NCBI GenBank assembly: GCA_011033025.1
Contig: WFMF01000204.1
Coordinates: 62,001 to 126,000, forward strand
Reading direction: 5' to 3'
Origin: Beroe forskalii
Lineage: Eukaryota > Ctenophora > Nuda > Beroida > Beroidae
DNA: 64,000 bases
Numbering within the stretch: the first letter of the stretch is position 1; each line of letters opens with the position of its first letter. Below are positions 608 through 58,506 of this stretch, piece after piece. The position numbers and the translations under genes were made by a program. Under the pieces are notes generated by a model. It saw only the letters and a program-made list of their open reading frames with translations, ran no database searches and was not told the origin of the DNA.

Positions 608-1029
<422 letters not shown>

Positions 1030-3623: not shown

Positions 3624-3639
3624 GGCTTTTAGAAAAGCC
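3624..3639 (-). terminator. histone stem-loop of H2B
   Basis: The minus strand reads GGCTTT TCTA AAAGCC, a six-pair stem with a UCUA loop that fits the metazoan histone consensus (GGYYYU-UYUN-ARRRCC). It lies ~40 bases past the H2B stop and is preceded by 'aaac'. It is the expected SLBP binding site. Confidence 0.92.
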
Positions 3640-3680: not shown

Positions 3681-4040
3681 TCACTTGGAGGAAGACGAGG
3701 TGTACTTGGTCACTGCTTTGGTACCCTCAGAGACAGCATGTTTCGCCAGTTCTCCGGGGAGGAGTAGCCTCACGGCAGTTTGGACTTCCCTCGAAGAAAT
3801 GGTCTTGCGTCGGTTGTAGTGTCCGAGGCGGGAAGCTTCACCAGCTATTCTTTCGAAGATGTCGTTCACGAAGGAGTTCATGATGGACATTCCTTTGGAG
3901 CTGATACCCGTATCAGGGTGAACCTGCTTGAGGACTTTGTAGATGTAGATGGAGTACGATTCCTTCCTCTTCCTCTTGCGTTTCTTGTCGCCAGCAACTC
4001 GTCCAGCTTTCTTTCCCGCCTTCTTTTCGGCTTTTCCCAT
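3681..4040 (-). CDS. H2B: histone H2B
   Basis: A 119-residue intronless frame encodes H2B, a core nucleosome histone that pairs with H2A. The basic tail ([14 protein letters not shown]) leads into the histone fold ([15 protein letters not shown], then [20 protein letters not shown]), and the C-terminal helix includes [18 protein letters not shown], ending KYTSSSSK. The tail [18 protein letters not shown] is slightly shorter than usual for animals, and an in-frame stop lies just upstream, so the ATG at 4040 is the only available start. GHYNRRK instead of the common AHYNKR(S/K) is a local variant. A histone stem-loop follows at 3624-3639, so the gene is probably replication-dependent. No TATA box is evident within ~100 bases upstream, where the sequence changes character, so the promoter may have been lost or replaced. 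Confidence 0.96.
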
Positions 4041-6338: not shown

Positions 6339-6345
6339 TATAAAA
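6339..6345 (+). promoter_or_regulatory. TATA box of the SGNH gene
   Basis: TATAAAA lies 76 bases before the ATG at 6415, which leaves room for a short leader of about 45 bases. That spacing resembles histone genes. Confidence 0.6.
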
Positions 6346-6414
6346 CAGTGTGTAAAGAAGTGTGTGAACAAGTCAGAACAAAGCTGGAGTTGTTGATGCT
6401 GAGAGCAGGCAAGG

Positions 6415-6975
6415 ATGAAAATCTGTTTGATTGTTGACAGCAACCTGAAGTATGTCAGCAAGGAAATGTTTCCCTTGTTAAGCTGTGAGGGTGATCTGTA
6501 TGTGCCCTACTTGGTAAAGAAAGACTCTGAGTCTTGGCCAAGTGTGGGTCAGTTGAAGGAAGCAGGATACACAGACGTGTTGGTTGGGCTAGGGACCAAC
6601 CATTGCAAGCACCCTGGTGATGAGTGGAGGAAGGGTGCTGAGGCCCTGAGTGAGATTATCTCAGAGTGGGCAATAAGCCTTCCTGGAGTGAGGCTTTACT
6701 GCTTGCTGCCACCACCGAGCGTAAGCTCTGCGGTGTCAGCCAGAGTACAACTGTACTCTACATGGCTGCGAGGCCACCTGGAAAGAGGGGTGATTCTTAT
6801 CGCCCCTCCCTCCTTCCTTTACACCGAGGAAGGGACGTTGAAGGAGGGCTTTGCAAGAGAGAGGGAGCTGGAAAGTGGTGTGAAGGAGCACCAGAAGGTG
6901 CATCTCAACGAGGCTGGGGTGAAGGTCCTCACTGAGAGGATGCAGACTGTGCTGCTAGGGCACATCCACTCATGA
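6415..6975 (+). CDS. intronless SGNH-hydrolase-like protein with histone-type 3' end
   Basis: A 186-codon frame has the layout of an SGNH/GDSL hydrolase. IVDSN near residue 9 supplies the nucleophile serine block, GLGTNH near residues 58-63 resembles the GxND block, and VHLNEAG near residue 163 is the C-terminal histidine block. The Asp normally three residues before that His is Gln here, and the D of GxND is His, so catalysis may be weakened or changed. Stand-alone SGNH domains also occur in ORF1 of CR1-like LINEs and in many invertebrate repeats, so this may be transposon-derived. The gene has a TATA box at 6339 and tandem TGA stops, and is followed by two histone-type stem-loops (6995-7010, 7040-7055) and an AATAAA. 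It runs toward the LINE on the opposite strand. Substrate unknown. Confidence 0.75.
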   Translation: MKICLIVDSNLKYVSKEMFPLLSCEGDLYVPYLVKKDSESWPSVGQLKEAGYTDVLVGLGTNHCKHPGDEWRKGAEALSEIISEWAISLPGVRLYCLLPPPSVSSAVSARVQLYSTWLRGHLERGVILIAPPSFLYTEEGTLKEGFARERELESGVKEHQKVHLNEAGVKVLTERMQTVLLGHIHS

Positions 6976-6994
6976 TGAGTTGTGAGGAAGAAAC

Positions 6995-7010
6995 GGCTTT
7001 TTTAAGAGCC
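6995..7010 (+). terminator. histone-type stem-loop 1 after the SGNH gene
   Basis: GGCTTTTTTAAGAGCC fits the histone consensus exactly (stem GGCUUU/AGAGCC, loop UUUA), preceded by 'aaac' and directly followed by AATAAAG, a potential polyadenylation signal. It lies 20 bases after the stop codon. Confidence 0.85.
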
Positions 7011-7039
7011 AATAAAGAAAAAAGAAAAACGGAACGAAC

Positions 7040-7055
7040 GGCTTTTTTCAGAGCC
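7040..7055 (+). terminator. histone-type stem-loop 2 after the SGNH gene
   Basis: GGCTTTTTTCAGAGCC has the canonical UUUC loop and is preceded by 'gaac' and followed by A-rich sequence. It is a near duplicate of stem-loop 1, 45 bases downstream. Confidence 0.85.
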
Positions 7056-7378
7056 AAAAAATTAGAAAAGGGAAGTCTTGGTCAAAAAAAGTTAAGTAAA
7101 GAAAGGGGTTAGTAGTGAATGGGGTGACAGGGGTGAAAGGGATCAGTGAATTTGGTCAGTGTAGTCTGTCAGTGGGAAGGTATGAGTCATGGCACAGTAT
7201 CAAGTGTCATGACTGAAGAGAGAAGTCTAATCGGATTTGTTTAAGCCCGTTTAGACAAAAGAGGAGGCGAGTAAGAAGTTGCAACGAGCCCGTTCAAGCT
7301 CGTTTCAACAAAAAAGGGAGGAGGGAAGAGAACGATGCAAGAGAGAGTGAGAATGAGGAGTGAGTGCACTGAATAGTG
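7056..7378. other. 3' flank shared by converging SGNH gene and LINE
   Basis: No coding region is seen. Several short inverted motifs such as gagcttgttcaagctc (7402-7417) and gagcccgttcaagctc (about 7287) lie here; this is probably the LINE 3' untranslated region read on the minus strand. Confidence 0.5.
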
Positions 7379-10219
7379 TTACGACCCAAGTGAGAAGTTT
7401 ACTCGAGCTTGTTCAAGCTCAGAGACAGCAGCACTGTTCTGGTGTATAATGCCGCTCAGAATTTCAAAGATGCGACTTGTGGGTGATAAAATTTGATCTA
7501 TCACAAGTCTAGAGGTAGGTAGGTTGTGTTCAGTTTTCCTCATGATGTAGTCGTAGGAGAGTTTAGTCCACCGAGCACGAAGCGTGGTGCAGTTTGCCAT
7601 GTCTCGGAGAGTCTGAGTGTTGGTAGACCGGGGTAAGCCTAGGAAAAGACGGAGGACTCTGTGCTGGAAGGTCTCAATGTGAATGTTGGTGTAATAGGTA
7701 GGCACCAGTAGGTAGATCGGAGCACAGTGGTCAAAGACAGGCCTGATGTAAGCTTTATAGAGGTAAATCAGGATGTCAGAATGAATGTTCGGTGCATAAG
7801 CAAAGAGTCTGCAGACAATTGCAAAGCGTTTCCTAGCTTCCTTTAGGATAACATCAATGTGTGGTTTAAATGAGAGTTCATCGTCCATCCACACTCCAAG
7901 ATATCTGTGAATCTTGGCGTACGGTATCATGATATGATTCTCACTGGACAAAGACCGAGCAAAGATGCGGTGATAAGTTGATTTGGGTGAGTGGAAAAAG
8001 GAGATGAGAGCGCTCTTATCAGGATTGATGGTTATTTTCCACTTCTCTGCCCATGTAGTGAAAGAGTTAATGAAATCCTGTAGGTGTTTTGCAGTCGAGA
8101 AAGTCCTTCGGCTTCCTGAGAGAGCAGCAGTGTCGTCAGCAAACTGTGAGGAATGAACATACTGAATGTTGGGAATGTCATTGGCATAAATGAGAAAGAG
8201 TAATGGGCCGAGAATTGATCCTTGTGGTACCCCAGAGAGTGGCTGAAAGGTTTCAGAGAACACACCGTGGTGTTTCACTCGTGATGTCCGCCCTGTCAAA
8301 AAATGGTAAACCCACCGAAGAAGGAGAGGGGGTAGTTTGAGTTTGTGAAGTTTGAAAAGAAGCGATTCAATACAGACCTTATCGAAAGCTTTCGATATGT
8401 CTGCAAAAAACCCTACATTGGAGAGTTTCATACGCTTATTGTGCAAGATCTTGTGCACCATTGTGAGAACTGCGTCAGTTGTTGAGTGGTGAAAACGAAA
8501 ACCGAACTGTTCGGCATTGAAGAGCCGGTTAGTTTCCATGTATGCCATGATTCTATTGAAAAATACCCCTTCTAGTATTTTCCAAATGCATGAAGTAAGA
8601 GAAAGAGGTCTGAAGTTCTTGGGAATGTCAGAGCTAACCCCGTGTTTGGGAATCATGGTAATGTCTGATTGCTTGGCCGAGAAAGGGAGATGTCCTAGAA
8701 GGAGTGACGCGTTGAAAAGTGCGTGAAGCTTGGGTAGGAGAGAGGTGGGTGCATGATGAATGAGCATATAGGAGATCCCATCAGGCCCAGGAGCAGAGTT
8801 TTTGCCGTTCTCTACCCTCTGAGAGAGCGAATGAGTGATGTCATGAAAGGAAATCGGATTGCCCATGTCCGTTGTGGGGCTTGGTGTGGTAGAGATGTTG
8901 TCGGGGTCGATGAAAGAAGAAAATGTCTCAGGAGAAGTGCGAGGAAGAGGATCAGCAAAGGCTCGAAACTCGAGGTTAAACCAGTGTTTAACCTGAGCGT
9001 GTGTCGAGCTGGTTTCAAAGAGGTGAGGGGGAGGACCAGGATGTGACTGAGAGGTGGACGGAGGGGAAGGAGGGGATGGGGGAAGGTCGGATGAAGATGA
9101 GGAGACATTATGTCTCCGAGAGGCTCGTTCCTCTCGTGCACGTGACTGCTCATTATTATGAGAAGTCAATGCTGTGACTGTGGGCTTAGGGTGAGGTATG
9201 TCAGGCAATGGGGTCATGACCTCCATTAGATGACTTCTGAACTCATTTGCTTGTAGAGTTGCATCAAGTGTTGTAGTGCCGTCGGAGAGCAGAAGAGGTG
9301 CAATCTTGTTTTGGGATTTGATTCCTGTAATATCCCGTATGTCTTTCCAAAATACACCTGGGCTATGACGCATTTTTTGCCGTAATTGTTTACACTTTTC
9401 GGAATTAATGAGCATCTTTTTGGAATATTTAGCTTTCTTGATGGATTTAGTGACCTTATTCAAACGTTTGGTTAAGGTAGAGTGAAGCGGGTCTCTACTT
9501 GTTGTTTGGGCAATGCGAGTTTTGAGGTTCCGCTTTTCAGAAACAAGGGAATGGGTAAGGCTGGTGCCAGGTTTTTTAGAGATACCAGGCCTGATAATAT
9601 GAAGCGAATTAGAGGCAGGAAGACTGGATGCAGCAGATTGAATGATTGCCTGAGTTAAGCTTTCAGAAAGTTGATCAATCATCGAAAGAGAAGTTGGAGG
9701 ATTAGGTGGTAAGTTAGTGAGTCGATTATGAAGAGTTTCCTTGTAGCATCTCCACTCAGCTGGTCCAGCTTTCTTTATATCGAAAGAGGCGGTAAAATTT
9801 GCCAAAGGGGAGTCATCCTGGTTGGGAAGTGGAGTGGAAAGCATGCCCAGGACGGGAGTGTGGTCAGACCCACTGCCATGGAGCGTAAACGAGTTTTCAA
9901 ACTCATGTGCAACATGTTCAGGAATGAGTGTGTGATCGATGGTATCGAACGTTGAGTGAGATTGGCTGTGGTGGGTGTGGCCGTCCGGCGTGAGTGATGA
10001 GTAGTGATGCTTTTGCATGAGGCTGATAAGCCTGTTTCCCGCCCGATCATTGCGGGTACTACCCAGTGAGGTGTGTTTCAGGTTGAAGTCCCCTATCAAG
10101 ATGTTGTTGGGGTAATTCGTCATAAGTAGAGGGAAACGAGACACGTCAGAGCTAGCCACACGATGAACAAGAGTAACGTGAAAAACCTCTTCCCCAGGAA
10201 AGGAAAAGGAAAGTACCAC
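7379..10219 (-). CDS. LINE ORF2: endonuclease (C-terminal part) and reverse transcriptase
   Basis: The 946-codon frame begins inside the APE endonuclease: GDFNLKH near residue 43 and SDHTPVL near residue 118 are catalytic landmarks. A Ser/Pro-rich linker follows around residues 370-400. The reverse transcriptase has the motifs FADISKAFDKV, GVPQGSILGPLLF and FADDTAAL (the catalytic DD pair), then the YLGVWMDDELSFKPH thumb-proximal block and a C-terminal domain. It would nick target DNA and prime cDNA synthesis there. The frame is open over its whole length, so this copy is fairly young. The N-terminal endonuclease portion (about 10399-10590) is in a different frame; the shift falls at a run of four A (plus strand) at 10395-10398. 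I place it in the Jockey/CR1 superfamily; the exact clade is uncertain. Confidence 0.93.
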   Translation of the reverse strand: MVLSFSFPGEEVFHVTLVHRVASSDVSRFPLLMTNYPNNILIGDFNLKHTSLGSTRNDRAGNRLISLMQKHHYSSLTPDGHTHHSQSHSTFDTIDHTLIPEHVAHEFENSFTLHGSGSDHTPVLGMLSTPLPNQDDSPLANFTASFDIKKAGPAEWRCYKETLHNRLTNLPPNPPTSLSMIDQLSESLTQAIIQSAASSLPASNSLHIIRPGISKKPGTSLTHSLVSEKRNLKTRIAQTTSRDPLHSTLTKRLNKVTKSIKKAKYSKKMLINSEKCKQLRQKMRHSPGVFWKDIRDITGIKSQNKIAPLLLSDGTTTLDATLQANEFRSHLMEVMTPLPDIPHPKPTVTALTSHNNEQSRAREERASRRHNVSSSSSDLPPSPPSPPSTSQSHPGPPPHLFETSSTHAQVKHWFNLEFRAFADPLPRTSPETFSSFIDPDNISTTPSPTTDMGNPISFHDITHSLSQRVENGKNSAPGPDGISYMLIHHAPTSLLPKLHALFNASLLLGHLPFSAKQSDITMIPKHGVSSDIPKNFRPLSLTSCIWKILEGVFFNRIMAYMETNRLFNAEQFGFRFHHSTTDAVLTMVHKILHNKRMKLSNVGFFADISKAFDKVCIESLLFKLHKLKLPPLLLRWVYHFLTGRTSRVKHHGVFSETFQPLSGVPQGSILGPLLFLIYANDIPNIQYVHSSQFADDTAALSGSRRTFSTAKHLQDFINSFTTWAEKWKITINPDKSALISFFHSPKSTYHRIFARSLSSENHIMIPYAKIHRYLGVWMDDELSFKPHIDVILKEARKRFAIVCRLFAYAPNIHSDILIYLYKAYIRPVFDHCAPIYLLVPTYYTNIHIETFQHRVLRLFLGLPRSTNTQTLRDMANCTTLRARWTKLSYDYIMRKTEHNLPTSRLVIDQILSPTSRIFEILSGIIHQNSAAVSELEQARVNFSLGS

Positions 10220-10703: not shown

Positions 10704-11129
<426 letters not shown>

Positions 11130-11189: not shown

Positions 11190-11205
11190 GGTGCTTTTCA
11201 GCGCC
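11190..11205 (+). terminator. histone stem-loop of H2A
   Basis: GGTGCTTTTCAGCGCC with loop UUUC is preceded by 'aaac' and followed by ACCA, an essentially textbook site 60 bases after the stop. The purine stretch AAAAGAGAA at 11216-11224 fits the histone downstream element bound by U7 snRNP. Confidence 0.96.
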
Positions 11206-12188: not shown

Positions 12189-12204
12189 GGCGCTAAGAAG
12201 CACC
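12189..12204 (-). terminator. histone stem-loop of H3
   Basis: Minus strand GGTGCTTCTTAGCGCC folds into a six-pair stem with loop UCUU, 'aaac' before and ACTTCA after, 23 bases past the H3 stop. A purine-rich stretch (taaagaaaa) follows at about 12166-12176. Confidence 0.95.
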
Positions 12205-12227: not shown

Positions 12228-12680
<453 letters not shown>

Positions 12681-21413: not shown

Positions 21414-21429
21414 GGCTTTTAGAAAAGCC
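21414..21429 (-). terminator. histone stem-loop of H4
   Basis: Minus strand GGCTTT TCTA AAAGCC followed by ACCAC, preceded by 'aaac', ~50 bases after the H4 stop. The stem and loop are identical to those of H2B. Confidence 0.93.
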
Positions 21430-21481: not shown

Positions 21482-21783
<302 letters not shown>

Positions 21784-22154: not shown

Positions 22155-22365
22155 GTGTATGTGTGCTTCTCATCAACCAGTGTAATGTTGATGTATTCTG
22201 GATTGTAATGAGTCTTGTCGTTTTCTCTTTATTACAATCAACCGCACACATTAGTTCACGTGTATGTATGCTTCTCATCAACAGTGTAATGTTGATGTTT
22301 TACGGTTTGTAATGAATATCGTAGTTTTCTCTTCATTACAATCATCCGCATACTTAAGATCAGGT
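22155..22365 (+). repeat. ~105-bp tandem duplication in the DIRS 5' region
   Basis: 22155-22261 and 22262-22365 are imperfect copies (both contain cttctcatcaac and gtaatgttgatgt). They lie between the left terminal repeat and the gag start, a likely leader or promoter region. Confidence 0.8.
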
Positions 22366-22431
22366 GTTCTTTTGAACCTTTTTAACAATGAAGTTGTTAA
22401 ATTACCTTTACTAATCACTACTTTGAGAAGT

Positions 22432-23650
22432 ATGATGGATTACGAGGTATTAAACCCTCCCCCTCCCCCACCACCAAACCCAACCACATCGGGCCCCACA
22501 CGGGCACCATCTTCAGATCCCTCTGACCTCTTCCAAGTCCCACCCATGTTCCAGGGGTCAGCACAGCAACCTGAGTCAACAACCAGTCTACAGAACCTAG
22601 CAAGAGCTGTGCCACCACCCATCCCAGCTGGTTTTCAAACCTACCGTTCAGTGTACATGAAGAAGGAGGAGTTCTCAAGATTCTTCGCTGAGGCGGGATT
22701 AGAGAAGAGACTGACCCCCCCCCCCCCGAAGGTGGGTAAGGGATTTGTGGAGCCCAATGATGCGGACTACAACTTCCTACTCTCCCTGACGGACAGACTG
22801 GGGTGGGGAGCGGAAGCCCTCTTCAAGGCAGATGATGCCAACACAGACCCCCGGCTCGGCGGATCACTTCAATGCATTGGCATAGCCCTTGGACAGTCCC
22901 TAGCTCTCATTGATCATATGAGACGCTGCCGTATCCTGAAGCAGACCTGGAAGCACCTCCATCACGGACACATCGCTTCTTTCCTGAAGCAGGCGTATGA
23001 CTCCGGAACATTCACCAACGGCGACCAGGACTCACTCTTCCCGGACAACTTCGCTGAGTTCTCTAAATCCTACAAGATCCCCGCTCCTGAACTACCTGGT
23101 ATCAGGAACACCATTCCACCTGCTCAACCAACCACAAGGTACAGTTATGTTGGGAAGTTTACTACTAAGAGTAACCTTTCAAATGATTTGCTAGACAATA
23201 CTAATTTAGTTCAGACTCCAGTGTCTGGTTCATCGAACCCGTTTTGTCCCAGTGTGGGTCCTATAAGGGGACCCGCACCTAATGCTCGGTTGGTACGGGC
23301 AAATTCCAGGAGGGAACCTACCCGTACCACAATGGTGTGGTCTAAAGGAGACACACCATCTCAAAGCATTAGTGTCGTCAACCCAGTATCTTTAGGAGAT
23401 ACTCGGGATTATATCGACAGGGGACCAATCTGCTCCAATATGGACAAGCAGAATTATAATGGTGGTAAGAGACGGGCCTCATCTTCCCCTTCAGGGAGGG
23501 AGAAGAAACGCAAGGGAGAAATCCCGCCCTTTCGGGAGGTGGCCCGACACGGGCCAGAATTTGACACAGTGGCGGGAGTTGACATCGAACCAGCAGATTC
23601 TGAGCTGGGTGTCAGGAGTAGAACTCCTCTTTCAAACATTACCACTACAA
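22432..23650 (+). CDS. DIRS gag-like protein
   Basis: I place the start at the double ATG 22432/22435, which precedes a proline-rich tail (VLNPPPPPPPN). The frame is open farther left to 22264, but there it lies inside the tandem leader repeat. The central part (about residues 95-260 from this start) is a helical region around DRLGWGAEALFKADD and RRCRILKQTWKHLHHG, typical of DIRS gag proteins, followed by a Ser/Pro/Arg-rich, nucleic-acid-binding-like tail (RRASSSPSGREKKRKG). No zinc knuckle is seen. The same frame stays open across the whole reverse transcriptase region to 25740, so the end given here marks only where gag-like composition fades. Confidence 0.75.
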
Positions 23651-25393
23651 CCACCGCAGGAAGTGGTTTATCACACAGACATAGCACACCAGCATGTCAT
23701 GGACAATCTAGTCTCGGAGTTAGTGGTCAGAAGCATTGTAGTAGAGTGTTCGGAGCCCAGATTCATAGCGGGCTTGTTCTTAAGACCCAAACCAGGGGGG
23801 AGTCACAGGCTGATCATCGACCTCTCACCCCTCAACGAACATTTAAGAAAGGAACATTTCAAAATGGAGGGTCTACAGGATGCCCTGGACATCCTGGAGG
23901 AAAAGGATTGGATGTGCAAAGTGGATCTAAAGAACGCCTATTATTCAGTTCCCATCAAAGAGGAGCACCAACCATATCTAGCGTTCATCTGGCAGGGAAG
24001 AACATGGATGTTCACGAGGCTATGCTTTGGCCTCTCCCCTGCCCCAAGGATCTTCACGAAGATCCTGAAACCAGTGCTCAAGTGGCTGAGGGCCCAAGGA
24101 GCCAAGCTGGTAGCTTATATAGACGATTTCTGGGTTGCACACGCCTGCAAGAGCAAGTGCAGGGAACTGACACTCAAATTAGTGCAGTTTTTAAGCAGCC
24201 TGGGATTCACGGTAAGTGGAGAGAAGAGCATCATGGAGCCAGTACAATCTTTAGTCTTCCTGGGGATGGAGATATCCTCCCGGGACATGACTGTAACACT
24301 GCCAAAGGAAAAGAGAAGCCTCTGCCTCCTCAAGGTGATGTTGAGGAAGAAGTATACATCACCCCTCACCATGGCCAAGTTAATAGGCTCCTTGGAGGCA
24401 ATAAAACCAGCCTTCAGAATGTGCCCTCTGTATTATCGCACCATACAGAAGTGGCATGTAAACCTTTTACGGAGAGGGGTCGGCAGTCAGTCGATGAACA
24501 TGTTTCGATTGTACGAGGAGCAACTCATGGAGTTGGAGTTTTGGAGGGACCTGGTCCCCAAACTCAAACCACAACCGATCATCCAGCTTCAGGGGTCCGC
24601 ACTTCAGTTACATACCGATGCATCGGACGAAGGCTGGGGCGCCACGTTGGGCAAGAGAGTAGCTCACGGCCAATGGACCCAGCAGGAGACTTCACTTCAC
24701 ATCAATGTGAAGGAACTGTTAGCAGTCCTCAAGGGACTGACTTCATTGGGATCATCCCTGAGGGACCAGTCCCTAGTGTTGGGAGCAGACAACATGTCTT
24801 GTCTGGCGTACATCCGCAAAATGGGCGGAGTTCGGAATGTGCAAATGTCACATCTAGCGAGAGAAATCTGGGAATGGGCCCAGAACAGGGGACTGAATCT
24901 AGTCACCCATTACATTCCGGGGTTACTCAACACGAGACCGGATTACCTGTCCCGGATATGTCAGGACGAGAACAAGGAATGGATGCTGAACCGCAAGGAG
25001 TTCAACATGATACGGAAGGAACTGGGTCCCCTGAGAAGGGATCTGTTTGCCAGCCACAGAGCTCACCAGCTGCCTCAGTACATGACATGGGGAGAGCAGC
25101 ACGAGATGATGAATGCATTCCATCATCAGTGGCTGGACGGGGACTATGCGTTTCCCCCGTTTGCAGTGATAGGCAGAGTCCTCAGCAAAGTGAGGAGAGA
25201 CAGGTGCAGGCTGGTGCTGGTAACCCCGAAGTGGGAAGCACAGCCGTGGTACACAATGCTGCTAGCAATGTCAGTGTGTCGTCCCATACCACTGAAGTAC
25301 CACAGGAACCTGTTGCTGGACCCAGCGGGAAACAGTCACCCACTGGGAAGTGCTTTACACCTGACTACCTGGCTCATAGACGGGAACAACTGA
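23459..25393 (+). CDS. DIRS reverse transcriptase / RNase H
   Basis: This 644-codon frame is +1 relative to gag and overlaps it. The RT starts with the 'GRW...W..L..D/N..IL..V.G..L.F'-type block near residues 25-60 and has RPKPGGSHRLIIDLSPLN, DLKNAYYSVPI, LCFGLSPAPRIFTKI and the catalytic YIDDF at residue 220. RNase H follows with HTDASDEGWGA near 385, INVKELLAVL, the D of LGADNMSCLAYIR and HYIPGLLNTRPDYLSRI. The missing Leu/Ile-Asp variations are within the family range, and no inactivating change is visible, so this enzyme may be intact. It makes the element's cDNA. It lies wholly inside another long open frame (see findings). Confidence 0.95.
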   Translation: MVVRDGPHLPLQGGRRNAREKSRPFGRWPDTGQNLTQWRELTSNQQILSWVSGVELLFQTLPLQPPQEVVYHTDIAHQHVMDNLVSELVVRSIVVECSEPRFIAGLFLRPKPGGSHRLIIDLSPLNEHLRKEHFKMEGLQDALDILEEKDWMCKVDLKNAYYSVPIKEEHQPYLAFIWQGRTWMFTRLCFGLSPAPRIFTKILKPVLKWLRAQGAKLVAYIDDFWVAHACKSKCRELTLKLVQFLSSLGFTVSGEKSIMEPVQSLVFLGMEISSRDMTVTLPKEKRSLCLLKVMLRKKYTSPLTMAKLIGSLEAIKPAFRMCPLYYRTIQKWHVNLLRRGVGSQSMNMFRLYEEQLMELEFWRDLVPKLKPQPIIQLQGSALQLHTDASDEGWGATLGKRVAHGQWTQQETSLHINVKELLAVLKGLTSLGSSLRDQSLVLGADNMSCLAYIRKMGGVRNVQMSHLAREIWEWAQNRGLNLVTHYIPGLLNTRPDYLSRICQDENKEWMLNRKEFNMIRKELGPLRRDLFASHRAHQLPQYMTWGEQHEMMNAFHHQWLDGDYAFPPFAVIGRVLSKVRRDRCRLVLVTPKWEAQPWYTMLLAMSVCRPIPLKYHRNLLLDPAGNSHPLGSALHLTTWLIDGNN

Positions 25394-26282
25394 AAGATGT
25401 TCCTAGAGAGGTACAGGATTACATCCTTAACAATGAGCTCAAAGAGAGTACATTGAACGCCTATGAGGCTAAATGGAAACTATGGGTTTCCTATTGTGAT
25501 AAGAACGGGTTAAACCCTATGGAACCCAATATCCCTGCGATAGCAACATATTTACATCATAAATTACACGTGCAGGGGGTGAAGTTCACGACAGTTGAAA
25601 ATGATGCAGCAGCCATATCAAAGTACCTTCCACTTGTAGAGGGGTATTCAGTGTTCAATCACCCCATCATCAAACGGCTTAGGAAAGCTAGCTATCATGT
25701 AGTCCCACCAGAACCAAAATATAACGAATTTCTCTATTAAATTTACGCAGGAAAACGTACACTCTTTGCAAACTCATGTCCATGGGCAGAGACGCAGACG
25801 TCACTAATTTCCAGCTCCCCAAGAGGGACCCAGCCTCATTTAACAGGGATGATACACAGTTCATTATCCTCAAACGAGGCATCTTGACTAAATCGCAAAG
25901 GAAGGGCTGCAAGGGACTAGTTAAGATAGAAGCATTCAAGCCGGAGCAGGCTGACATGTGCCCAGTCAGAACTCTGATAGATTACTTAGTAAGAACACAG
26001 CCACTACGTCACAAGGAGGCAACTGAAGTCTTTGTGACGTCAGTAAAGCCACATAAACCCATTGCCAGGGCAACAGGGGGTAAGTGGCTCATGGAATCCC
26101 TGAATAGGGCAGGGATCGATACTGCGAGATATAAAGGTCACTCCTTTAGAGGAGCAGCTGCTAACAGCAAGAGAAGTGCTGGGGCTTCAGTAGAACGCAT
26201 CCTCAAGGAAGGGATGTGGAAGTCTGAAAAGGTCCTGAGGAAGTATTACCTCAGAGAGGACCATCAATGGAAGTCTGATTAG
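25345..26282 (+). pseudogene. DIRS tyrosine recombinase, split by a frameshift
   Basis: The N-terminal (SAM-like) part is at the end of the gag frame (residues AHRREQLKDVPREVQDYIL through KPKYNEFLY, stop at 25740). About 25735 the reading shifts, and the catalytic domain continues in another frame: MSMGRDAD supplies the first Arg, GHSFRG the H-x-x-R pair (His122/Arg125 of the frame from 25776), GMWKSE the Trp at the second-His position, and KYY the nucleophile tyrosine region. All expected catalytic residues are visible, so only the frameshift breaks it. It would integrate the circular cDNA. The product is probably inactive in this copy unless the shift is a sequencing error. Confidence 0.88.
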
Positions 26283-30553: not shown

Positions 30554-31756
30554 GTGGTACTTTCCTTTTCCTTTCCTGGGGAAGAGGTTTTTCACATTAC
30601 TCTTGTTCATCGAGTGGCTAGCTCTGACGTGTCTCGTTTCCCTCTACTTATGACGAATTACCCCAACAACATCTTGATAGGGGACTTCAACCTGAAACAC
30701 ACCTCACTGGGTAGTACCCGCAATGATCGGGCGGGAAACAGGCTTATCAGCCTCATGCAAAAGCATCGCTACTCATCACTCACGCCGGACGGTCACACCC
30801 ACCACAGCCAATCTCACTCAACGTTCGATACCATCGATCACACACTCATTCCTCAACATGTTGCACATGAGTTTGAAAACTCGTTTACGCTCCATGGCAG
30901 TGGGTCTGACCACACTCCTGTTCTGGGCATGCTTTCCACTCCACTTCCCAACCAGGATGACTCCCCTTTGGCAAATTTTACCGCCTCTTTCGATATAAAG
31001 AAAGCTGGACCAGCTGAGTGGAGATGCTACAAGGAAACTCTTCATAATCGACTCACTAACTTACCACCTAATCCTCCAACTACTCTTTCGATGATTGATC
31101 AACTTTCTGAAAGCTTAACTCAGGCAATCATTGAATCTGCTGCATCCAGTCTTCCTGCCTCTAATTCGCTTCATATTACCAGGCCTGGTATCTCTAAAAA
31201 ACCTGGCACCAGCCTTACCCATTCTCTTGTTTCTGAAAAGCGGAACCTCAAAACTCGCATTGCCCAAACAACAAGTAGAAACCCGCTTCACTCTACCTTA
31301 ACCAAACGTTTGAATAAGGTCACTAAATCCATCAAGAAAGCTAAGTATTCCAAAAAGATGCTCATTAATTCCGAAAAGTGTAAACAATTACGTCAAAAAA
31401 TGCGTCATAGCCCAGGTGTATTTTGGAAAGACATACGGGATATTACAGGAATCAAATCCCAAAACAAGATTGCACCTCTTCTGCTCTCCGACGGCACTAC
31501 AACACTTGATGCAACTCTACAAGCAAATGAGTTCAGAAGTCATCTAATGGAGGTCATGACTCCATTGCCTGACATACCTCACCCTAAGCCCACACTCACA
31601 GCATTGACTTCTCATAATAATGAGCAGTCACGTGCACGAGAGGAACGAGCCTCTCGGAGACATAATGTCTCCTCATCTTCATCCGACCTTCCCCCATTCC
31701 CTCCTTCCCCTCCGTCCACCTCTCAATCACCTCCTGGTCCTCCCTCACCTCTTTGA
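30554..31756 (+). pseudogene. LINE copy 2 endonuclease/linker fragment
   Basis: 400 codons almost identical to the first part of ORF2 of copy 1 (GDFNLKH, SDHTPVL conserved), ending by frameshift in the Ser/Pro-rich linker. Upstream of it the same four-T run as in copy 1 (30375-30378) separates the endonuclease start from the frame. Confidence 0.9.
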
Positions 31757-52158: not shown

Positions 52159-52261
52159 GTAGCAACTCCAAAGAAATCAACAGCAAAGAAGCCCTCCGCA
52201 AAGAAGGTCAAGAAGCCAGCAGCCAAAAAAACCTGCCGCTAAGAAGACTGCCAAAAAGTAA
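52159..52261 (+). pseudogene. H1: C-terminal tail of histone H1
   Basis: The plus strand encodes ATPKKSTAKKPSAKKVKK and PAAKK, the Lys/Ala/Pro-rich tail typical of linker histone H1. One extra A in the A-run at 52225-52231 shifts the frame; in the shifted frame the tail ends in AKKTAKK and a stop at 52259-52261. A histone stem-loop follows at 52330. Everything upstream (globular domain, promoter) has been replaced by the T-rich tract of segmental repeat E. Confidence 0.85.
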
Positions 52262-52329
52262 AAGGTAATTGCTTCCTGAAGTTTGGAGTCGACTCCTATG
52301 GAGAACAATTCCCAGTCGAGGGTTTAAAA

Positions 52330-52345
52330 GGCTTTTATAAAAGCC
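52330..52345 (+). terminator. histone stem-loop of H1
   Basis: GGCTTTTATAAAAGCC: six-pair stem, loop UAUA, followed by CCAAAA. It fits the consensus apart from A at the second loop position, which is tolerated. About 70 bases after the H1 stop. Confidence 0.85.
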
Positions 52346-52512
52346 CCAAAATTGACGAGGAATATCTTATCCCCGGGATGCGCAACAAATACGAGGTATT
52401 CGTTAGCTAACGTTCCGTCGTATGACCAATTTTTAATTGAGAGTTACCTACACTCTTCGCGAACTAGCATCCGCTGATGGAGAAGGGGTCGTCGACCATA
52501 ATACCCGGTATA

Positions 52513-53097
52513 CCTTAGTACAGAATATTTATACATCACAATATTTATACGAATTTTGATTTTTTCGTATAAATTTCATGTATAAAATTTATGAAGTATA
52601 AATTATGTGTCGTACAAATTTTTCATACAACCGTATAAATTTTCCAGTCAACCGTACATTGAAACGTATTGAAGAGAATGCTAGTGCTGAATATATTAGC
52701 GATGAGATTGCTAGATGCCTTAAAATTTCTCCAGGAATAGATGAAACTAAAGTAAATAGAGGAAAAGCTGTTCTTCGAACTCTGCATCCAAAGACAATAT
52801 TAAAGTCTTTCACTTACTTTAAGACGCCAGAAGGAAAGTCAAATATTTTACAAGAATGGTCTGGTATCGCTAAAGCAGTGAAAAAAATACGTGATACTCA
52901 AAACAAGGGATACTGATGGCTTAGTGGAGTGTGGACCCGTTCTCTTGTCTCACATTGAATAATTAATTTCAAAATTTTAACTGAATTCATCAAACCGAAT
53001 TTCTTTTTTCTTGGTAGCTGATAAAATCGTATAAATTTAATGTCGTATAAATAATATCCGTATAAAATTCGTGACGTATAAATATTCTGTACTAAGG
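52513..53097. mobile_element. 585-bp TIR element with its own small frame
   Basis: CCTTAGTACAGAATATTT starts both ends (22-bp perfect inverted termini), flanked by TA on each side, the duplication expected for Tc1/mariner-like elements. Subterminal regions carry many copies of 'cgtataaat'. The 103-codon frame inside (52605-52916) occupies half of the element. Confidence 0.85.
52605..52916 (+). CDS. 103-codon frame in the small TIR element
   Basis: The predicted protein is basic and helical in character (RTLKRIEENASAEYISDEI, then GRAVLRTLHPKT-like and EWSGIAKAVKKI). The region after residue 18 reads like a real domain without low complexity, and codon use differs from the AT-repeats around it. 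I recognise no family. It could be a DNA-binding protein of the element or a captured host exon; the start is uncertain because the first ~15 codons lie in subterminal repeats. Confidence 0.45.
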   Translation: MCRTNFSYNRINFPVNRTLKRIEENASAEYISDEIARCLKISPGIDETKVNRGKAVLRTLHPKTILKSFTYFKTPEGKSNILQEWSGIAKAVKKIRDTQNKGY

Positions 53098-54960: not shown

Positions 54961-55929
54961 ATTTCTGGCGAAGCTTTTTACTGTACGTGCGCTCGCGACC
55001 ATTTCCGCGCGAACGACACAGTTTTTAGGTGGCGCGGTTTCCTGCTACGTGATTGCATTACGTCATCGCATTTATATAGCCTACTCGGCAGATGGGCACC
55101 TTGCAATCGGCGCCGATCAGCGCTGATCAGCGCCGACCCACCGCCGATCAGCGCCGATCGGCGCTGATCAGCGCTGATCGGCGCTGATCGGCGCTGATCA
55201 GCGATTGATCAGCGCTGATCAGCGACACCGCCGATCAGCGCTGATCGGCGCTGATCAGCGCCGATGGAAAAAATTTAAAATTTTATCGGCGGTCGTCGGC
55301 GCTGATCAGCGCCGATCAGCGCTGATCAGCGCTGATCAGCGCCGATCGGCGATCAATCAGCGCTGATCGGCGAAATTGGCCGCCGATCAGCGCCGATCAG
55401 CGCTGATCAGCGCCTACCAAAACACCTGCATAAGAGCCTTAGAAAACTCCATCGGCGCTGATCAGCGCTGATCAGCGCCGATCAGCGCCGATCAGCGCCG
55501 ATCGTTAACTTACTATATTCGCACTGATATGGACATTTGGGTACGTTTCCCTTGCAAAATATAATTCCGACTGGCCCTGGGTGACGTTGAGAGTCCGATC
55601 AATTGATCAAAGTGGATAGATCAAAGAGGATGGGCACTGGGCAGGTCGTCAGGAAGGAAGGAGGTTAATGGTTATAAAGTTATAAGAGGACAGTCTTCCT
55701 ATCAGCTTTGGGTGTATCTCAACACCCATACACCCATATGAGCCGCCCCTGGTCCGAGCTGGTTGATGTGTTAGTCTAACCGCTTACACATGTGAAAGAA
55801 AAATCTCTCCTGCCCAATCCCTAGAAAGACTTTCAGTTGCATGAGCAGGAGCAAGGGATAGGATCCTCGATCATCGATATCTCTCACCATACCTCCAGCG
55901 AGGCTACTGCGGAATGTGACCCACTTCCA

Positions 55930-56230
55930 GGGGGATAAAAGTTCGCAGTCCTACGGCTAGGTGCGACTTTTTATCCCCATTCGAAGCACGAATGGGAATG
56001 AAAGGTCGAAGTTCCACTCCTGTCTAAGTCTTTTTATTCCCCTGCTTGCTACCGAGCTCATAGGGGGTAAAAAGTCGCAGTGTATTGTGGAATTGCGCCC
56101 TTCCCCCCCCCCCCCCCCTTAGAATACAGTACAGATCAAAGGTAAGCAGGGGGTAAAAGGTCGCACCTGTACCCTAGGCTGGTAAAAAGGCGGGGGATAA
56201 AAAGTTGGGGGTAAAAGGTCATATCCCCCA
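55930..56230. repeat. interspersed GGGGTAAAAAGTCGC motifs
   Basis: At least six forms of 'ggggtaaaaagtcgc' in both orientations, plus a C run at 56105-56120. The motif occurs again at 61499. Confidence 0.65.
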
Positions 56231-56364
56231 TCTCTTAATGCCCTAATCACGGAAAGCTATTCCATCAATCACCATCACAAAAATCGGAATTTCAAAAGAA
56301 TCTGCCTTACAAATACATTGTAAAATCGTTACGACACAGTAGGACCGTTAGGTCCTACGGTCAT

Positions 56365-56461
56365 ACGAGTGAATTACTGCGGGAGACTCCCGGGAGTCCC
56401 CCGGGAGTACTGCGGGAGTACTCCGAGAGTACTATACGGGAGTAATTCGCTCGTATGACCA
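56365..56461. repeat. ~95-bp hairpin
   Basis: GGTCATACGAGTGAATTACT pairs with the complement ending at 56461 (one mismatch); the interior is a run of 'cgggagta' units. Confidence 0.8.
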
Positions 56462-57600
56462 CACAGTAACACCGTTACGACACGTTAACACCGCTACGAC
56501 ATAGTAACACCGGTACTACACAGTAACACCGTTACGACACAGTAACACCGTTACGACACAGTAACATTGTTGCGACACAGCAACCCCTTTGCGACACGTC
56601 ACATCGTCACGACACAGTAACACTATAACTCTAAGTCTATAATTACGACACAGTAACATCGTAATTACGACGCAGTAACGCCGTTACGACACAGTTACAC
56701 CGTTACGACACACTCACAGTAACGTCGGTCGTCGTTACAAGTACGCATCAGTAACGGTGTAACGACTCGGTAACATTGTTACGACACAATAACACCGGTG
56801 CGACACACTAACACCGTAAAGCCAAAATAACACACTTACGACAGAAAACGCCATTTTACTTTTAAGACCCGTTGATATATGATATAGCGCTTTTGATGGT
56901 TAACAAGTAACAACATTACTGTGTTGTAACGGTGTTACTGTGTTGTAACGGTGTTATAACTGTGTCGTTACGGTATTATTTTGCCGTAATGGTGACACTA
57001 TGTGGTAACGGTGTTACTGTTACTGTGTCGTAATGGTGTTACTGTGTCGTATCGGTGTTACTGTGTCGTATCGGTGTTACTGTGTCGTTATATCGGTGTA
57101 ACTGTGTGAGTGTCGTATCGGTGTTACTGTGTCGTTACGGTGTTAGTGTTTCTTAACGACGTTACTGAGTTGTAACGACGTTACTTAGTCGTAACGACGT
57201 TACTGAGTCGCAACGACGTAACCGAGTCCTAACGTCGATACTGTGTCGTAACGGCGATACTGTGTCGTAAAGTTGTTACAGTGTCGTAACGACGATACTG
57301 TCGTAACGTTGTTACACTGTTACTGTGTCGTAACGGCTTTACTGTTTCGTAACAACGTTACTGTTTCGTAACGGCATTACTGTGTCGTAACGACGATACT
57401 GTGTCATAAGAGCATTACAGTGTCGTAACGGTGTCTGTGACGTAACGGTGTTTCTGCTTTACTGTGTCGTAATGGTGTTACTGTGCCTAATTACAGTTAA
57501 CAGTGTTACTGCGCCGTTAATGTGTCGTAACGGTGTTTCTGTGTCATAACGTAGTTTCTGTGCCGTTACTTCGCATCTCTGTCGTAACAATGTTGCGGTC
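56459..57600. repeat. two head-to-head arrays of a 19-20-bp unit
   Basis: 56459-56830 has units of gttacgacacagtaacacc, and 56915-57600 has the complement ggtgttactgtgtcgtaac, both degenerate, with ~85 bases between. Together they form a >1 kb imperfect inverted repeat inside the TIR element. Confidence 0.9.
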
Positions 57601-58506
57601 TAGTAAAGAAGTAAAGGTATCATACGACTATCCTGAGCCGAGTTATGAACGAAATACGTTCGATTATGACCTCAGGACTTCGAATATTTTTGCGTCCAAT
57701 ATTCTCAACGTCCAATTTACGAAATTAAGGCGTTGGGAGATATGGGCCCATCTTATACGTACAGACTTTCAAAGTTAATAAATCGTAGTTTGTATGAAAG
57801 TACTTCAAACTATCTGGCCGCTTATTTTGATACTACTTTTTTGAATATTTGTTAAGTAAGCCTATAATCGGCCCGGCGCAACGGGTCTGTAGTTGTTTAC
57901 AATGTTTAATGTTGTTGTTGACTATTGACGTGGTTATTGATGTTGTGATAAACCTAGGTGCGAGGATTTGCCATTAAACGTTTCCCAGGGCCAGCCGGAA
58001 TTGTATTTTTAAGGGAAACATACCCACATGCCCGTATCGGTGCGGGTTTGGTAAGTTAGCGATCGGCGCTGATCAGCGCTGATCGGCGCTGATCAGCGCT
58101 GATCAGCGCCGATGGAGTTTTCTAAGGCTCCTATGCAGGTGTTTTGGTAGGCGCTGATCAGCGCTGATCAGCGCTGATCGGCGGCCAATTTCGCCGATCA
58201 GCGCTGATTGATCGCCGATCGGCGCCGATCGGCGCTGATCAGCGCTGATCGGCGCTGATCAGCGCCGACGACCGCCGATGAAATTTTTAATTTTTTCCAT
58301 CGGCGCTGATCAGCGCCGATCAGCGCCGATCGGCGGTGTCGCTGATCAGCGCTGATCAATCGCTGATCAGCGCCGATCAGCGCCGATCAGCGCTGATCAG
58401 CGCCGATCGGCGCTGATCGGCGGTGGGTCGGCGCTGATCGGCGCTGATCGGCGCCGATTGCAAGGTGCCCATCTGCCGCCTACTCATGGTAATATGAAGT
58501 ACTAGA

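Follow-up and report, generated by a model that had tools for sequence, protein, structure and literature searches.

In animals, tail-less mRNA that ends in a stem-loop is described as peculiar to the replication-dependent histone genes in the accessible portions of two reports (PMC1924863, PMC9526256). A locus of the ctenophore Beroe forskalii raises the question of whether a gene for a different kind of protein can be expressed in the same way. The window (the whole 64,000-nt stretch of DNA analysed here, C253:62001-126000 of a 216-Mb genome, C253 being the contig) is part of a histone cluster. Within it, a frame that encodes no histone is followed by two histone-type stem-loops, SL1 and SL2. 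Does the gene use these signals, or do they stand behind it for another reason? In window positions, the parts of the unit are:

6339-6345, plus strand: TATA box TATAAAA, 76 nt upstream of the ATG
6415-6975, plus strand: intronless ORF of 186 aa, GDSL/SGNH-like (open frame and Pfam)
6986-7068, plus strand: 38-nt unit present twice in tandem (6986-7023 and 7031-7068, 82% identical), with one stem-loop in each unit
6995-7010, plus strand: SL1, a stem-loop of histone type with AAAC before it; the 6-bp stem includes one U-G pair and the loop is UUUA
7011-7016, plus strand: AATAAA abutting SL1, followed by an A-rich purine tract
7040-7055, plus strand: SL2, also a stem-loop of histone type, with GAAC before it and the loop UUUC
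7063-7075, plus strand: purine-rich tract TAGAAAAGGGAAG, at the place expected for a histone downstream element (by eye)

An initial annotation had described a non-histone, intronless frame with a TATA box, a double stop, SGNH similarity and two consecutive stem-loops, and this anatomy is confirmed with correct coordinates. From the ATG at 6415, the frame runs on for 186 aa to a TGA at 6973-6975, and a second in-frame TGA (6976-6978) follows at once. Pfam returns PF13472 (Lipase_GDSL_2; residues 55-170, E 3e-5, 25 bits where the cut-off is 32.9), a weak DUF459 and no histone family; thus, the product is non-histone and its SGNH similarity, although borne out, is weak. A relative scores 14.1 bits against the same cut-off.

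By eye, the window protein offers a candidate for each of the Ser, Asn and His blocks usual in SGNH/GDSL hydrolases: the S in VDSN (from residue 7), the N in GLGTNHC (from residue 58) and the H in KVHLNEAG (from residue 161). However, D-x-x-H is usual at the His block of SGNH/GDSL hydrolases, where this protein has Q-K-V-H. It also differs from these hydrolases in falling below the PF13472 cut-off, in matching none of the NCBIfam profiles and in having no convincing PDB relative by sequence: a PDB search with the protein matched two designed TIM barrels, which were taken as spurious, and one with a profile matched nothing. Short-peptide scans of viral and prokaryote records, a method that detects close relatives only, found no relatives beyond this genome. 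The protein is a putative enzyme.

The stem-loops, GGCTTTTTTAAGAGCC (SL1) and GGCTTTTTTCAGAGCC (SL2), are exact fits to the histone consensus, as had been claimed. Both share the strand of the gene and lie 19 and 64 nt behind the stop, 45 nt apart from start to start, and their sole difference is a loop base that the consensus leaves free. Each folds into a 6-bp stem with a 4-nt loop, the same shape as the histone stem-loops. The AATAAA between them begins 36 nt after the stop, directly at the 3' edge of SL1. Behind SL2, TAGAAAAGGGAAG resembles (again by eye) the tract TAAGAAAGGAAAT behind the H4 stem-loop, and the 25 nt from 7056 to 7080 have zero substitutions in both other copies of the gene. 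By its look, SL2 is a tandem copy of SL1 made locally, or SL1 of SL2. The idea that the two stem-loops and the AATAAA could act as a switch between 3' ends is possible but weak, because the AATAAA touches SL1 and reads AACAAA in a frameshifted copy of the gene, and because SL2 looks like a duplicate of SL1.

The residence of the gene in a histone locus, which the initial annotation had only surmised, is evident from open frames for H2B, H2A and H3 in the same window:

3624-3639, minus strand: H2B stem-loop (consensus and RF00032)
3681-4040, minus strand: histone H2B gene (open frame and Pfam)
10755-11129, plus strand: histone H2A gene (open frame and Pfam)
11190-11205, plus strand: H2A stem-loop (RF00032 and extended motif)
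12189-12204, minus strand: H3 stem-loop (RF00032 and extended motif)
12228-12638, minus strand: histone H3 gene (open frame and Pfam)
21414-21429, minus strand: stem-loop of a truncated H4 (consensus, RF00032 and extended motif)
21482-21757, minus strand: histone H4, the 3' 91 codons only, the 5' part disrupted at about codon 13
52161-52564, plus strand: histone H1 3' region, 5'-truncated, with a stem-loop at 52330-52345

The truncated H1 is 99.5% identical to an open-frame H1 locus at C253:52250-53050; its stem-loop has the loop UAUA, and its front is replaced by other DNA that is T-rich further upstream. A second H2A copy (668-1017, minus strand) is in two pieces in different frames. Outside the window, C253 holds more core-histone matches. 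The stem-loop at C253:50665 is preceded by a 103-aa ORF, a length that fits an intact H4, and no ATG ORF of at least 60 aa ends within the 200 nt before an H2B-type 3' end at C253:59234. H1 matches occur at three places on the contig, two of which were read and have each their own stem-loop; the notion that the SGNH gene stands in for a missing H1 was consequently rejected.

Repeats are interspersed with these genes. Near-identical copies of a non-LTR retrotransposon lie in opposite orientation at 7379-10123, just behind the SGNH gene, and at 30650-31756. Some hundreds of bases away from the truncated H4 lies an element (22264-26282), DIRS-like by eye, with a reverse transcriptase ORF (RVT_1, 68.5 bits) and a weak match to a tyrosine recombinase that stays below the cut-off. 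Two 473-nt inverted repeats (55086-55558 and 58006-58478, 96% complementary) are rich in GATCAGCGCC-type 10-mers, and most of the microRNA-model matches near 55086-58478 fall within them.

Could the two stem-loops behind the SGNH gene be a product of chance? When up to one mismatch is allowed, the consensus GGYYYTTYTNARRRCC has 7 matches in the window against 0.68 expected, and among simulated 100-nt flanks of local composition one exact site is seen in 1 of 200,000 and two sites in none of 200,000. Genome-wide, the bare 16-mer has 62 exact matches, 9 of them on C253, but its reversed-pattern control has 220, so the 16-mer is not informative alone. An extended motif, AACGGYKYTTYYNARMRCC, consists of the consensus plus the preceding AAC, widened to fit H2A and H3; AAC precedes the histone stem-loops read, with the exception of H1, which has AAA. 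This motif has 13 sites in the genome (reversed control, 3), of which 12 are on C253, an enrichment that is partly by construction because the motif was drawn from sites already seen, the gene's own included; its scarcity elsewhere is not. Seven of the sites are histone 3' ends, the one at C253:59234 among them, five are at three copies of the SGNH gene, and the one elsewhere has no ATG ORF of at least 60 aa ending within 200 nt upstream. The histone motif is nearly restricted to the C253 histone cluster. On the strength of the window count, the 13 extended sites and the simulated flanks, a chance origin was rejected.

Further non-histone genes with the motif were sought at 30 of the 62 exact-site loci, of which C253 holds 9 and other contigs 21. 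Among the latter, one site lies 105 nt behind a 223-aa Ig-domain ORF, without the AAC context, three lie 101-191 nt behind ORFs of 60-67 aa, and 17 have no ORF (at least 60 aa, within 200 nt). These sites were taken as chance.

Scores from the Rfam histone model, RF00032, are low. SL1 (22.8 bits) and SL2 (23.3 bits) are below the gathering score of 34, which only H4 (35 bits) passes among the window's histone sites (H2B 31, H2A 30.7, H1 26.5, H3 23.8). A genome scan with this model gave 21 matches to E 10 (75 of 41,571 candidates scored), a set that is incomplete in that it lacks the window's own H1-type site (26.5 bits). The model, which was not drawn from the sites seen here, agrees with the extended motif: among the matches listed, the best 13 are all on C253 and comprise 8 histone and 5 SGNH sites; the latter, at 22.4-23.3 bits, are not far above the next-best sites listed (21.1 and 20.6 bits). 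In folding, SL1 is matched by 3 of 200 shuffles and SL2 by 18, compared with 17 for the H2A site.

Other parts of the transcription unit can also be set beside those of the histone genes. Against -76 for the TATA box of the SGNH gene, that of H2A is at -88 and that of H3 at -78; the 250 nt before H2B were searched and none was found. A short 5' leader would follow from this position. The distance from stop to stem-loop, 19 nt for SL1, is 23 nt in H3, 41 in H2B, 52 in H4 and 60 in H2A. In contrast, the SGNH promoter has no CCAAT boxes, which H2A and H3 have, and shares one 8-mer with the H2A promoter and zero with that of H3. Directly behind the stem, the SGNH gene has AATAA and AAAAA, whereas the histone genes have ACC, CCC or ACT.

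Of the processing factors, SLBP is encoded in the genome (one SLBP RNA-binding domain, E 7.8e-24). An Rfam search of the genome for U7 snRNA gave no match; the control genomes, all prokaryotes, are unable to yield U7. Matches to a U7 Sm-motif pattern numbered 7 in the genome, two of them overlapping, compared with 17 for its reversed control. Six short stretches that were read gave two weak hits to the U7 model (21.3 and 17 bits vs 34) and no convincing 3' hairpin.

The SGNH gene is present in three copies on C253: the window's, a frameshifted copy at C253:45993, and a copy at C253:137520 whose 5' end falls in an assembly gap. The pair of stem-loops seen at the window copy is complete at C253:137520; the frameshifted copy keeps SL2 intact, has SL1 one base short, and carries AACAAA in place of AATAAA. 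Upstream, C253:45993 and the window copy have about 170 nt in common, TATA box included. Compared with the window, C253:137520 has 4 substitutions in 548 ORF positions and 7 in 244 positions of the 3' flank without the stem-loops (Fisher p 0.041), and none in SL1 (0/16), SL2 (0/16) or the 25 nt behind SL2, which are counted within the 244. The four countable ORF changes, two nonsynonymous and two synonymous, are too few to gauge selection. For the frameshifted copy, the corresponding counts are 25/552 and 6/243 (p 0.23), so that here the ORF is not more conserved than the flank; there are no substitutions in the compared stem-loop letters or in the 25 nt behind SL2.

Relatives of the gene are found elsewhere in the genome. 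A search with the window protein gave 12 matches, the C253 copies included, and a search with a relative gave 18. The dispersed relatives are on eight other contigs and are mostly fragments; where matched by the window protein, they have 28-41% identity to it, and they share its candidate S, N and H residues where aligned. The two full-length dispersed copies (on C669 and C301) differ by a dN of 0.060 and a dS of 0.834, which indicates that their ORF was under purifying selection. The suggestion that the gene is transposon-derived is plausible, since the relatives elsewhere sit in repeat-rich DNA. When the 3' flank of one dispersed copy was used as a query, at least 47 genome matches were obtained (40 of 964 candidates scored). 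All three cluster copies are on the one contig, and no mobility gene of the same element was identified for the dispersed SGNH relatives.

An LTR element was considered for the dispersed copies on account of two direct repeats on contig C192, 99% identical, that flank a split SGNH relative. However, the stretch between them has a 985-codon frame on the opposite strand with a weak GIY-YIG match, and therefore no element class is named. This frame (locus L093, 170-3127, minus strand) is open and Penelope-like by eye; GIY-YIG scores 18.6 bits, below the cut-off, in the 709 residues scanned.

Whether stem-loops accompany the paralogs outside the cluster, a point raised by the initial annotation, has a divided answer. 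The exact histone site is absent from the dispersed relatives in genome-wide searches with both the bare 16-mer and the extended motif, and at up to two mismatches five of the dispersed loci, scanned in this way, gave one match (L004, position 2066), on the strand opposite to the gene. A different hairpin, GGC...GCC, is present soon after the stop in all five dispersed copies that reach the end of the protein; a sixth, C669:432365, is cut off before that end and has no hairpin there. The stem has 8 bp (one copy lacks a base) and the loop 4 nt, with UUUA in the C301 copy only. Two of the eight pairs are changed on both sides, and each change separates the C669 and C301 copies from the other three, so that both may reflect few events. 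In shuffles, 8 of 500 reached the covariation score and 8 of 500 the proportion of paired cells, but the number of double-changed pairs was reached by 253 of 500 and that of pair types by all 500. Among random 70-mers, 411 of 20,000 contain a stem of at least 8 bp that includes 4 or more G-C pairs and closes a 4-nt loop. Because the dispersed copies are related, their hairpin counts as one observation, not five.

We conclude that this is probably a real non-histone, SGNH-type gene within a histone cluster, with a transcription unit of the replication-dependent histone type whose signals are used. The SLBP-dependent histone machinery would cut its pre-mRNA just behind SL1 or SL2, yielding a non-polyadenylated, replication-coupled mRNA, and local tandem duplication would have generated SL2 from SL1, or SL1 from SL2. 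Transcription of the gene, SLBP binding, the 3' end and the timing are thus predictions from DNA sequence. They are favored because two exact, same-strand sites lie 19 and 64 nt behind the stop, where the window's histone genes have 23 to 60 nt, because the extended motif is, with one exception, confined to histone 3' ends and the SGNH copies, and because of the TATA position, the like fold, the SLBP gene, the upstream sequence shared with C253:45993, and the comparison with C253:137520, in which the stem-loops and following 25 nt are unchanged and the ORF has proportionally fewer substitutions than the flank. Counted against them are the failure to find U7, the non-histone letters of the 3' flank, the lack of CCAAT boxes, the low Rfam scores, and the frameshift in one of three copies, whose ORF is no better kept than its flank. 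In addition, U-runs near the loop weakened binding by human SLBP in one assay, as far as the accessible text of PMC5892938 goes.

The main rival holds that the stem-loops are relics: 3' ends of histone genes that were truncated by rearrangement and that just happen to lie behind an ORF which is unrelated or dead. Truncations of this kind occur here, as seen in the H1 and H4 fragments, each with its stem-loop, and in the H2B-type 3' end without an ORF at C253:59234. Since rearrangements do leave histone 3' ends, they may have been the route by which the SGNH gene gained its module, and the relic explanation keeps weight. It is weakened, however, by the mere 19 nt between stop and SL1, where tblastn with the cluster histones finds no histone coding remnant, by an SGNH stem-loop sequence that differs from every cluster histone stem-loop read, and by the co-duplication in three copies, which fits a single unit, as do the strand and the spacing of the promoter; we judge it unlikely. 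It is improbable that the gene is an ordinary polyadenylated one, with a 3' end set by the AATAAA at 7011 and hairpins that are incidental or tune stability. The closeness of this signal to the stop and the different 3' hairpin of the dispersed relatives are in keeping with such a gene, but two exact histone stem-loops are very unlikely by chance, and the frameshifted copy has AACAAA yet an intact SL2. Moreover, in C. elegans histone genes an AATAAA behind the hairpin is conserved but used rarely if at all, according to the part of PMC1924863 at hand.

The hairpin of the dispersed copies points in another direction and suggests that the signal originated as the gene's own 3' end. In its simplest form, the hairpin would belong to the RNA of the dispersed SGNH family, and that of the cluster lineage would resemble, or have become, a histone stem-loop. 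The presence of GGC...GCC in five of five copies, with two double-changed pairs, speaks for this. However, the stem length and most of the loops differ, the double changes split the same two groups, and about half of the shuffles reach the pair count, which makes it the most doubtful of the explanations considered. Rather unlikely, too, is a wider proposal, in which a mobile, repeat-associated SGNH family had its own conserved 3' hairpin, one lineage settled among the histone genes, its hairpin became an SLBP target and was duplicated, and the enzyme gene, selfish or domesticated, is now made in S phase along with the histones.

If the histone-type reading is true, a second type of client gene would show that capturing a short 3' module is enough to enter the histone pathway, and it would also provide a natural test of histone 3' end function on a non-histone protein. 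If the mobile-family proposal is true, a non-histone protein-coding gene would be run by histone mRNA metabolism. No precedent for a histone stem-loop on a protein-coding gene other than those for histones was recognised among the literature matches listed, which cover titles and the starts of abstracts, subscription journals being mostly outside. A re-analysis of human SLBP eCLIP, in the accessible text of PMC5892938, gives 49 peaks, of which 35 are in histone genes, and so leaves room in general for SLBP binding outside them.

Like a replication-dependent histone gene, the SGNH gene is intronless, has a TATA box near its start and a short 3' flank, is sited within a histone cluster, and has a 6-bp/4-nt stem-loop soon after the stop, with AAC before and a purine-rich tract behind. 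Unlike such a gene, it encodes no histone, has two tandem stem-loops, the first abutted by AATAAA, lacks CCAAT boxes and has an A-rich rather than ACC-type 3' flank. Among non-LTR retrotransposons, ORF1 may carry an esterase domain, for which the accessible text of PMC3905857 names SGNH hydrolases; the likeness, drawn from description and not from sequence comparison, is that of an esterase-type gene associated with mobile elements, but the SGNH gene is a short stand-alone ORF. The human gene H2AC18 has, as described in the portion of PMC9756948 at hand, a stem-loop with AAUAAA and a purine-rich tract behind it, and in principle both genes could use two 3'-end pathways. H2AC18, however, is a histone gene in which the PAS overlaps the HDE and two processing complexes were tested, whereas the SGNH gene is known from its sequence and has two stem-loops.
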